Origin: Aurantiacibacter gangjinensis
GTDB taxonomy: Bacteria; Pseudomonadota; Alphaproteobacteria; Sphingomonadales; Sphingomonadaceae
Length of the DNA: 64,000 bases
Assembly (NCBI RefSeq): GCF_001886695.1
Contig: NZ_CP018097.1
Coordinates: 2,003,001-2,067,000 of the forward strand
Direction: 5' to 3'
Shown here: one piece after another, positions 6,352 through 9,100 of the stretch
How positions within the stretch are numbered: position 1 is the stretch's first letter
Layout: each line of letters begins with the position of its first letter
The notes under the pieces: generated by a model
The model's database searches: none
Told to the model about the DNA's origin: nothing
The model's input: the letters and a program-made list of their open reading frames with translations, nothing else
Program-made: the position numbers and the translations under genes

Positions 6352-7737
6352 CTACTCGCTGTAAGTGACCTTCTTCACCGCAGCGATCACTTTATCCTTG
6401 TCGATCAGCGCCAGCTTTTCGAGATTGGCGGCATACGGCAGCGGCACATCCTCGTTGCATACGCGCGTGACCGGCGCATCGAGATGGTCGAAACCCTCCT
6501 CCATGCAGATCGCCACGATTTCCGATGCGATGGAGCAGGTCGGCCAGCCTTCTTCGGCAATGACCACGCGGTTGGTCTTGGCGAGGCTTTCCAGCACCGT
6601 TTCCTTGTCGAGCGGACGCAGCGTGCGAAGGTCGATGACCTCGGCCTCGATGCCTTCTGCGGCAAGATCTTCTGCCGCATCCAGCGCCACGCCGACTGCG
6701 ATGGAATAGGACACGATCGTAACATCGCTGCCTTCCCGCATGATGCGCGCTTTGCCGATCGGCAGCACGTGGTCATCCAGCTGCGCGACTTCGAAGCTCT
6801 GGCCGTAGACCAATTCGTTCTCGAGGAAGACAACAGGGTCTTCGCTGCGGATCGCGGCTTTCATCAGGCCTTTAGCGTCAGAGCTGTCATAGGGCGCGAT
6901 CACGATGAGGCCCGGCACGCTGGCATACCATGGCCCGTAATTCTGGCTGTGCTGCGCGCCCACCCGGCTCGCCGCGCCATTCGGGCCGCGGAACACGACC
7001 GGGCAGCGCATCTGGCCGCCCGACATGTAATTGGTCTTGGCGGCGGAATTGATGATGTGGTCGATCGCCTGCATGGCGAAGTTGAATGTCATGAATTCGA
7101 CGATCGGGCGCAGGCCGCCCATGGCGGCGCCGGTGCCGATGCCGGCAAAACCGTATTCGGTGATCGGCGTGTCGATTACCCGCTTTGGGCCGAACTCGTC
7201 GAGCAGGCCCTGCGTCACCTTGTAGGCGCCCTGATATTCGGCGACTTCCTCGCCCATCACGAAAACACGCTCGTCACGGCGCATTTCCTCGGCCATGCCA
7301 TCGCGCAAGGCTTCGCGTACGGTCAGCTTCACCATATTGGTGCCTTCTGGCACGTCCGGATCGGATGCGCGCGCGGCAGGCTTCGGTTTGGTGATCTCGG
7401 CTTCTGAGGGATCGCGGCCGACATCCTTGCCCTCGCCGGGCACCGGATCCTCGCTCTCGGCAGCTGCCGGCGCTTCGATGGCGGAGGCATCTTCGTCCTC
7501 GCCTGCCAGCATGGCTATGACGGTGCCGACAGCGACGCCTTCCGTGCCTTCCGCAACGAGGATTTTGCCGACCGTGCCCTCATCGATGGATTCGAATTCC
7601 ATCGTAGCCTTGTCGGTCTCGATCTCGGCCAACACATCGCCGGCGGAAACAGTGTCGCCTTCCTTCACCAGCCACTTGGCGAGCGTGCCTTCTTCCATGG
7701 TGGGGGAAAGGGCGGGCATTTTCAGTTCGATAGCCAT
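6352..7737 (-). CDS. pdhB: Pyruvate dehydrogenase E1 component subunit beta with N-terminal lipoyl domain
   Basis: A 461-residue protein. Residues 1-80 are a lipoyl domain with the lipoyl lysine at K43 in ETDKATME. A Pro/Ala/acidic linker (about 80-135) leads into the transketolase-like E1-beta core ([20 protein letters not shown], then [20 protein letters not shown]) and a C-terminal transketolase domain. With PdhA it decarboxylates pyruvate using thiamine diphosphate and passes the acetyl group to E2. A lipoyl domain on E1-beta is usual in many alphaproteobacteria. Its ribosome-binding site GGGAGGG (7746-7752), 8 bases before ATG, belongs to the inverted-repeat element upstream. E2 and E3 genes are not in the window. 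Confidence 0.95.
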
Positions 7738-8009
7738 CAGACCAACCCTCCCAAGACCACTCGCGTCATGACGGAGCCGATTTGCGTGTGCTTCGAGGAA
7801 TGAGGAAGGATCAAAGTACCCTCTTTTTGACTGACGAATGACGACGTAGCGCGCGCAAATCGGCCCGCCGCGAAGCGGTCGCTTAGCCGCGCTCGCTGGA
7901 CAGCGTTACTCAACTTGCTCGTGCCTAAAGGCACGCTCTGCGTTTCGCGCCTTGCCAGCAAACGCGGCAAAGCGATCATGGCGTGAGTGGTCTTGGGAGG
8001 GTTGGTCAT
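7737..8009 (-). CDS. 90-codon open frame spanning the inverted-repeat element between pdhA and pdhB
   Basis: The frame starts with ATG inside the pdhA stop context (TGATG) and ends with TGA overlapping the pdhB ATG (TGATG), so ribosomes leaving pdhA could pass through it to pdhB. The predicted peptide begins [20 protein letters not shown] and ends [10 protein letters not shown]. It has an Arg/Ser/Ala-rich composition with no recognised domain, signal or membrane helix, and both ends are dictated by the inverted repeat. I think its value is in keeping translational coupling rather than in the peptide, but expression cannot be excluded. Confidence 0.35.
7740..8007. mobile_element. 268-bp MITE-like inverted-repeat element inserted at the pdhA/pdhB junction
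   Basis: The outermost 23 bases (7740-7762) are a perfect inverted repeat of 7985-8007, and the similarity extends to about 33 bases with three mismatches. The element is flanked on both sides by the direct repeat ATCA (7736-7739 and 8008-8011), as expected of a target-site duplication. Inside are further palindromes: 7776-7786 pairs with 7854-7864, and 7920-7935 is a perfect hairpin (CGTGCC-TAAA-GGCACG). There is no transposase, so it would be non-autonomous. Removing the element and one ATCA restores a direct TGATG overlap between pdhA and pdhB. Confidence 0.75.
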
Positions 8010-9100
8010 CAATACTCCCCCACCAGAACTTCGGTGTAGAGTTCTGCCGGATCGGGCTCGGGCGAGCTTTCGGCGAAATCTGCCGCTTCGGCAACCGTGG
8101 CGCGGATGGCCTTGTCGATCTCTTTCAGCTTCTCTTCTTCTATACCGGCAGCGCCAAGATCTTTCTTCACCCGCTCGATGGGATCGTTCTTCTCGCGCTG
8201 GTCCTGCACCTCCTCGCGCGTGCGATATTTGGCAGGATCGGACATGGAGTGACCGCGATAGCGATAGGTCTCGCATTCCATCAGTACCGGCCCATTGCCG
8301 TCGCGCACATGCTTGAACGCGATCTCGGCCGCCTGACGCACTTCCAGCACATCCATTCCGTTCACCTTCATGCCGGGGATGCGGAAGGCCGTGCCGCGGC
8401 GATAAAATTCGGTTTCGGCGGAACTGCGCCGCACCGCGGTGCCCATCGCGTACTGGTTATTCTCGACAACGAAGACGATGGGCAGGTTCCAGAGCGCCGC
8501 CATGTTGAACGTCTCGTAGACCTGGCCCTGGTTTGCCGCGCCATCGCCGAAATAGGCGAGGCACAGGCCGCCATCCTCATTATATTGATGCGCGAGAGCG
8601 AGCCCGCCGCCGAGCGCCACCTGTGCGCCGACGATGCCGTGCCCGCCGTAGAATTTGTGCTCGGTGCTGAACATGTGCATCGAGCCGCCCTTCCCCTTGG
8701 AGATACCGGCGGCGCGGCCTGTCAGCTCTGCCATGATGACTTTCGGGTCGATGCCGTAGGCGAGCATGTGGCCGTGATCGCGATAACCGGTGATGACGCT
8801 GTCGACATCGCCGTTGAGCGCGGATTGCAGACCGATCGCCACAGCTTCCTGGCCGATATACAGATGGCAGAACCCGCCGATCAGGCCGAGGCCGTAAAGC
8901 TGGCCGGCTTTCTCCTCGAAACGGCGGATGAGCAGCATCTGCTCGTAAAAGCCCATCAGCTGTTCGTCGCTTGCCCCGAACCGCTTCTTCTTCTCCAGCC
9001 CCTCCTGCAGCGAGCGCAGCGCGAAATCCTCGCTATTGCTGTCGCTTTTGCTTTTGGCAGGGGTTTTCTTGCTTTTGCCGGACGTGGAAGCTTTGGCCAA
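8009..9100 (-). CDS. pdhA: Pyruvate dehydrogenase E1 component subunit alpha
   Basis: A 363-residue protein. Apart from a Lys/Ser-rich leader of about 25 residues it follows the E1-alpha pattern: LIRRFEEKAGQLYGLGLIGG near residue 58, then the thiamine-diphosphate motif GDGAANQG (185-192) ending with VVENNQYAMGT (211-221), and the loop YRGHSMSDPAKYR that carries the regulatory-serine region in this family. It forms the alpha2beta2 E1 enzyme with PdhB. It is transcribed with pdhB, separated only by the inverted-repeat element. ATG 9100 is preceded by an adequate spacer; Lys-rich leaders are common in this family. Confidence 0.95.
   Translation of the reverse strand: MAKASTSGKSKKTPAKSKSDSNSEDFALRSLQEGLEKKKRFGASDEQLMGFYEQMLLIRRFEEKAGQLYGLGLIGGFCHLYIGQEAVAIGLQSALNGDVDSVITGYRDHGHMLAYGIDPKVIMAELTGRAAGISKGKGGSMHMFSTEHKFYGGHGIVGAQVALGGGLALAHQYNEDGGLCLAYFGDGAANQGQVYETFNMAALWNLPIVFVVENNQYAMGTAVRRSSAETEFYRRGTAFRIPGMKVNGMDVLEVRQAAEIAFKHVRDGNGPVLMECETYRYRGHSMSDPAKYRTREEVQDQREKNDPIERVKKDLGAAGIEEEKLKEIDKAIRATVAEAADFAESSPEPDPAELYTEVLVGEY

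Follow-up and report, generated by a model that had tools for sequence, protein, structure and literature searches.

A palindromic element at the pdhA/pdhB junction of Aurantiacibacter gangjinensis as a likely IS630-type miniature transposon that keeps stop codons intact

We analyzed a window of 64,000 nucleotides from the alphaproteobacterium Aurantiacibacter gangjinensis (NCBI RefSeq assembly GCF_001886695.1, contig NZ_CP018097.1, positions 2,003,001 to 2,067,000 of the forward strand), in which the stop-start junction of pdhA and pdhB is exactly filled by a palindromic, non-coding element of 268 bp (7740-8007, window positions). We consider it likely that this element belongs to a family of non-autonomous DNA transposons (miniature inverted-repeat transposable elements, MITEs) of the IS630/Tc1-mariner type, which insert at TA and keep the stop codons of the genes that they enter. 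An earlier note on this DNA had described the element as MITE-like, and this stands: it is short, has no transposase gene, is bounded by terminal inverted repeats (TIRs) and has empty sites in relatives. A TA duplication at one clean site and ends like those of IS630 appear to place it among the MITEs that depend on IS630/Tc1-mariner elements. Its relatives share a plan of about 270 bp, in which outer inverted repeats (about 33 bp; stem P1) enclose two long hairpins (P2 and P3) with a mini-hairpin between them. Two models of this plan are used below: R1, a covariance model of P2 and the mini-hairpin built from seven copies, and R2, a second model of 84 rows, some of them P3 arms.

Ends, target sites and stop codons

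Both ends were placed by rule in 88 copies and read YTA|G...C|TAR, with A at -1 in 81 copies, T at -2 in 66, T at +1 in 76 and A at +2 in 56, a few ends being misplaced by the rule (e.g., L057, L173, L175). The earlier note had taken the ATCA repeats that flank the pdh copy as direct repeats of the target; a 4-bp match is found in one of the 88 copies (0.2 expected), namely the pdh copy itself, no direct repeat of 3-10 bp is in clear excess, and the evidence points to TA instead.

The TA duplication is seen at one well-resolved site, that of L078, which is filled in genome G035. Four of five relatives (G007, G038, G020 and G021) have this site clean and uninterrupted with a single TA, where the filled site has two; the site is unalignable in G005. 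The sites of L073, L074, L080 and L082 are also empty in other relatives. Across 40 pdhA/pdhB loci, two of them unreadable, the element is missing from 36 of the 38 readable junctions, 34 of which are tight (gap -1 to 3) and two of which hold a small protein gene. Presence and absence at the same site are thus confirmed, and the TGATG overlap that the earlier note had predicted for the uninterrupted junction is exact in eight of the empty relatives (L041, L043, L047, L050 and L053-L056; gap -1). In G015 and G036 (L031, L035), a protein gene of about 115 codons stands between pdhA and pdhB, joined to pdhA by TGATG and without a match to R2; because of this small gene, the junction accepts more than one kind of insertion.

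The bacterial family of the host also contains TA-flanked IS630 elements of 1041-1065 bp, and the IS630 transposase domain PF13358 has a match in 68 of 298 genomes of this family. IS630 prefers CTAG as its target. An IS630 end (e.g., TAGAGTCTGTCCTGTTTAGATTGAGGCATA) can be identical to a MITE end at 26 of 30 positions, and the 32 IS630 ends, readable in 16 of the 27 loci examined (32 fetched, five too short), match their best MITE end at a mean of 21.9 of 30 positions versus 17.2 for shuffled MITE ends, the highest of 200 shuffle means being 18.1. From these similar ends we infer that an IS630 transposase is the mover. An origin of the element as an internal deletion derivative of IS630 finds no support in the loci examined, as R1 gives nothing convincing in the 32 IS630 loci (best E 0.3).

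We posit that the transposase of an IS630 element would bind the terminal repeats and insert the element at TA, preferably within YTAR, with duplication of the TA. An insertion within TAA or TAG would then leave TA|G, which is again a stop codon; because the element starts with G, the stop would be kept and the gene would stay intact, and because YTAR is self-complementary, a single insertion could serve two convergent genes. At the empty L078 site of G007, two convergent genes share the TA, one reading GGC TAA (512 open codons) and the other, on the opposite strand, GAT TAG (255 codons); at the filled site of G035, both genes end in TA|G.

Over the family, 71 of 176 sides were called by codon usage as genes running into the element, 64 as reading away, 16 as stopping earlier, 21 as unclear and four as short. 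The stop lies exactly at the element edge in 47 of these 71 genes (52 of the 71 are in that frame) and the other 24 continue into the element, the calls being rough, with the strand wrong on three of three checkable sides (pdhA in L061 and L065, E1 beta in L073). At least one edge carries such a stop in 37 of the 88 copies. When the codon model is left aside, 38 of the 54 open reading frames (ORFs) of at least 250 codons that run in end at the edge, where 18 would be expected if frames were equal; this is not an exact expectation, because frames are unevenly filled in the mirror control of ORFs reading away. Copies are enriched at gene ends, and purging of harmful insertions may contribute part of the bias. 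Insertion into a stop codon that is kept as a stop by the first base of the element fits these data better than a selected open frame does.

Shared architecture and distribution

The earlier note tied the mobility of the element to the existence of other copies, and these exist: R1 matches 12 of 40 genomes of the genus (E 0.1), and the host genome has a second copy (see below). In the alignment of the seven copies, the hairpins are of near-equal length and differ in sequence. The best R1 match (E 8e-24) is a copy within the model, and the best copies outside it reach 2e-23. R1 further matches 84 of 397 genomes of the bacterial family (E 0.01). At E 0.001, R2 matches 32 of 147 genomes in a draw from the order (11 of them outside the bacterial family), 37 of 385 in a draw from the class (35 outside the bacterial family) and 74 of 398 in a draw from the phylum (61 outside the class); these draws overlap, and because few candidates are scored in each genome when a search covers over 40 of them, such counts are lower bounds. 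Of the matches outside the bacterial family, two sets of 25 and 20 loci, chosen among the better ones, were checked, and the unchecked weak matches may be other palindromes, because the models reward long hairpins. Copies that share sites are not independent (L061/L065, L144/L177, L106/L134/L148 and L095/L120). The recurrence of the same plan in many genomes confirms that the palindromic architecture exceeds chance. Judging from such matches, the family occurs across Sphingomonadales and outside Alphaproteobacteria; among the matches listed, an exact motif is present in records of Novosphingobium, Sphingomonas, Sphingopyxis, Erythrobacter, Porphyrobacter, Qipengyuania and Croceibacterium.

Full copies are mostly 265-282 bp long. 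A TIR score of at least 15 is reached in 95 of 121 loci, the remaining ones being contig ends, shorter forms or loci with lower scores, and the left arms of the outer stem in these 95 copies average 42% identity despite 92.9% Watson-Crick pairs. R1 also matches the second inner hairpin, on the opposite strand and at a fixed offset, in 36 of 87 loci (E 0.1) with 26.6-55.9 bits, to be compared with the 23-25 bits that P2 scores on the wrong strand (L057, L105) in models that favor long hairpins; hence P2 and P3 are inverted relatives. R2 sees both arms in 20 of 26 loci (25 outside the bacterial family plus one weak match in the host genome) and in 14 of 20 loci from the phylum draw. In an alignment that was fitted to the model, 93.2% of the stem cells are paired versus 69.4% when shuffled, and stem covariation is 0.583 versus 0.150 when shuffled and at most 0.084 when slid. 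In the consensus, the conserved letters sit in internal loops and junctions, where facing G and A letters recur, separated by one or two G-C pairs, suggestive of a ladder of tandem G.A mismatches. The core of two mirrored hairpins is thus common to the copies and kept by compensatory change, and examination of the IS630 loci did not reveal it; for these two reasons it seems to be kept for some purpose, be it transposition or tolerance by the host.

Several variants and unusual carriers of the family were also noted. A shorter form of about 170-200 bp, in which P3 is reduced to a small stem, was recognized by eye in about 14 of the 121 loci (L062, L101, L115-L117, L122, L151, L152, L157, L161, L170, L171, L174 and L176). 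Genome G328 has nine copies with very similar repeats (L098, L125, L126 and L128-L133), several at contig ends, and their arms mix two repeat variants; they reflect a recent spread, possibly with recombination between copies or assembly chimeras. A conjugative plasmid of Pseudomonas aeruginosa carries a copy (L446:1500-1769; NZ_CP017294.1) between two same-strand genes, for an acyl-CoA dehydrogenase and a CoA-transferase, and another copy lies on an Azotobacter plasmid; neither has an annotation in the gene table, which is itself incomplete. For one Sphingomonadales copy, plasmids gave no match, and for one distant copy, E. coli genomes gave none. Copies also occur in records labeled as Gram-positive (L310, L316 and L321 of Bacillus sp. 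2B10, and L346 of Streptomyces sp. L-9-10), which more probably reflect mislabeled or mixed assemblies than transfer. Outside the class, family f193 (G906, G914, G964, G1003 and others) combines small genomes of 1.2-2.6 Mb with many matches, and several of its copies start like TAGGGTCTGTTAACA.

More tentatively, and with rather less than even confidence, we propose that these copies form a mobile lineage spanning the phylum, in which selection would act on the branched, mirror-symmetric fold and not on the sequence, the ends would be re-fitted to successive IS630 lineages, and stop-codon repair would permit life in the densest parts of genomes.

The copies of the host genome

The pdh copy lies between pdhA (E1 alpha; 8009-9100, minus strand), its upstream neighbor, and pdhB (E1 beta with a lipoyl domain; 6352-7737, minus strand), its downstream neighbor, both named from their sequences; the plus strand of the models is antisense to the pdh operon. 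Repeat analysis gives the left TIR, the 5′ arm of P1, at 7740-7771 and the right TIR, its 3′ arm, at 7976-8007 (both plus strand), each of 32 nt, with 94% complementarity and a perfect outer 23 bp. P2 with the mini-hairpin spans 7771-7881 (plus strand) and scores 113 bits with R1, this copy itself being in the model. A second inverted pair lies inside the element (7776-7795/7845-7864), and sequence and alignment show the central mini-hairpin, CCGC-GAA-GCGG, at 7868-7878 (plus strand). P3, the inverted relative of P2 (7865-7976, minus strand), scores 41 bits with R1 and 68 bits with R2 on the opposite strand, the rows of R2 including this very arm. A frame of 90 codons, ORF90 (8009-7737, minus strand, from the ORF list), runs through the element and overlaps pdhA and pdhB, each as TGATG; the left ATCA (7736-7739, plus strand) falls within the overlap of the pdhB start with the ORF90 stop, and the right ATCA (8008-8011, plus strand) within that of the pdhA stop with the ORF90 start. 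GGGAGGG (the complement of 7746-7752; minus strand) lies 8 nt ahead of the pdhB ATG and is likely its ribosome-binding site, which in the mRNA falls within the 3′ arm of P1. What the earlier note had stated of the sequence itself (268 bp, the repeats, ATCA, TGATG and GGGAGGG) holds on re-reading.

The earlier note found no second copy in the window, and a plain DNA search of the 2.72-Mb host genome (G000) likewise gives a single full copy, the pdh one; the element is nevertheless not single-copy in the genome. R1 detects a second copy at G000:C1:1791651-1791761, which spans G000:C1:1791524-1791793 in full (L092:2525-2794), is only 58.6% identical to the pdh copy and was missed by the plain search. 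It directly follows the stop codon of an E1 beta gene and lies 4 nt ahead of the start of the E2 gene in a branched-chain-type 2-oxoacid dehydrogenase operon (names from sequence). A third, weak match (1685531-1685634; E 2.5e-4) was not counted, as it lacks outer repeats and adjoins a tRNA-like gene by eye. Both host copies suggest a preference for 2-oxoacid dehydrogenase operons, which was not seen in a scan of 123 of the 131 flanking segments built (eight, from L065, L134, L148 and L177, repeat other sites and were left out): a lipoyl-domain match occurs in two of the 123, presumably both host copies, among the 25 of 81 families listed.

Another species of the genus (G024) carries a copy at the same pdhA/pdhB junction, found at 70% by the DNA search, in which weaker pieces turn up elsewhere. 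At 185 of 268 positions (69%) the G000 copy agrees with that of G024, from which the pdh insertion is probably old. Between them, 65 of the 103 pairs predicted in the window copy are unchanged, two-sided changes keep pairing in 18 of 20 cases (chance 1.7e-6) and one-sided changes do so in seven of 18. In G024 the right flank reads GGTC-TAATG, as might be expected of a TA duplication in which an A has since been lost from the other copy, a loss that would also have created the ATG of ORF90. The mRNA at this junction would then form a very stable branched fold whose outer stem includes the likely pdhB ribosome-binding site; ribosomes passing from the pdhA stop into ORF90 might open this stem, a suggestion weakened by the folding test described below.

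Alternative explanations and related elements

The earlier note had gone further and read the element as adapted to operons, with a selected open frame, a ribosome-binding site and translational coupling, which we regard as unlikely. In its favor, TGATG stands at both ends, the frame is open in both pdh orthologs, and the predicted mRNA has all of GGGAGGG paired within its outer stem, in a region that is conserved: the orthologs differ at two of the 28 positions that make up the outermost 14 bp of the two arms, where GGGAGGG and its complement lie, versus 83 of 268 overall (P 0.003). A pdhB ribosome-binding site supplied by the element and translational coupling would fit the sequence. That coupling is weakened by a folding test, in which the 5′ arm was held open over the first 60 nt of ORF90 and GGGAGGG was not freed but paired elsewhere. 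A selected 90-codon frame finds no support in a dN/dS of 0.80, in changes spread evenly over the three codon positions (28/28/27) or in an openness that is not improbable (P 0.18), and many copies sit at stop codons without a TGATG-type overlap. Across the family, at least one open frame is present in 61 of 87 copies, and 19% of frames are open versus 10% in base shuffles.

It is somewhat improbable, too, that the element is primarily a functional RNA fold of the host (a 3′-end stabilizer, an RNase III site or a bidirectional terminator), with mobility being secondary. The strong covariation and the location of copies at gene 3′ ends, including convergent pairs, would suit such a role, and effects on mRNA are reported for Correia and ERIC elements in the excerpted text of PMC2229807. 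Against it stand the empty sites in relatives and the mismatches of P1, which lean clearly to neither strand (G.T/T.G 62, A.C/C.A 85). Nor is there an Rfam family at the copies checked: the window yields one tRNA elsewhere and none at the element, and eight loci give three matches to microRNA models, which lie in the L441 flank and are all below gathering scores. A structure kept while its sequence varies, in hairpins with regular internal mismatches, also recalls hairpins that a Y1/HUH enzyme recognizes in single-stranded form, in the way that RAYT proteins recognize REP sequences; with inverted-repeat ends that resemble those of IS630 and, at one site, a duplicated TA, we deem this very unlikely. 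The single full copy in the plain DNA search would be expected of a local palindrome arising by chance or by a one-off rearrangement, a notion to which the same architecture in many genomes leaves next to no probability.

Some observations weigh against the IS630-type MITE that we favor. The pdh copy in the window has no TA duplication, and the duplication is unreadable at L073, L074, L080 and L082, where the junctions are too diverged. PF13358 has no match in the host genome and matches in only three of 20 genomes searched, all chosen as element-bearing. Between the pdh copies, 11 of the 18 one-sided and two of the 20 two-sided changes break a pair, and the pdhB tree leaves G000 and G024 unresolved as sisters. 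Finally, the mirror control is uneven, with 21, 20 and 3 of 44 ORFs in registers 2, 1 and 0.

Among the known repeats treated in the excerpts of Delihas 2007 (PMC2229807), namely RUP, Correia, ERIC, Rickettsia palindromic elements (RPE) and CIR, a close parallel is RUP of Streptococcus pneumoniae, a proposed IS630-Spn1-dependent MITE that is likewise non-coding, with TIRs, a TA target and IS630-like ends. RUP is 107 bp long and, in that account, confined to one species, whereas the pdh-element family is about 270 bp long and phylum-wide, with a branched mirrored core, diverse stems and a frequent position at stop codons. The same source describes Correia/NEMIS elements of Neisseria as sharing TA ends, TIRs (24 bp there) and stable mRNA folds, but as measuring about 107-155 bp, being limited to Neisseria and having an IHF site in the longer form. 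The CIR of Caulobacter and Brucella are similar in being intergenic repeats of Alphaproteobacteria with two hairpin arms; as described there, they are about 110 bp long with a conserved GANTC and no TIR, unlike the 33-bp TIRs that here enclose both arms, and membership among them was rejected on the presence of the TIRs and the length of about 270 bp. RPE are also palindromic with open frames (PMC2229807, in the part drawn upon) but are fused in frame inside proteins; as genes here often stop at the edge (in the 47 of 71 running in), this assignment was rejected as well. QMITE2 of Coxiella is a MITE often at gene 3′ ends, with one copy directly after a stop codon, and as described in the passages of PMC5896051 and PMC10969869 used here it has no stop-codon repair rule and no link to IS630. 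The portions of open-license PMC text covered (including PMC2229807, PMC5896051, PMC10969869, PMC2267715 and PMC3189936) hold no description of the pdh-element family or of such a rule, and the literature listings show no closer system. The ends, the target and the empty sites point to an IS630-type MITE, and its core and insertion habit are those of no family known to us.

Bacterial MITEs are usually recognized by sequence, and the pdh-element family is hard to see in that way, because its stems change and mainly the shape, the size and short internal motifs stay. Its copies provide naturally occurring changes that preserve the structure, through which the role of the fold can be explored, and at pdhA/pdhB the start of pdhB comes to lie under a stable fold, in a central metabolic operon that encodes an essential enzyme. 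The insertion habit would also provide a simple, testable rule for the harmless entry of transposons into gene-dense genomes: insert at a TA within a stop codon and supply the G by which it remains a stop.

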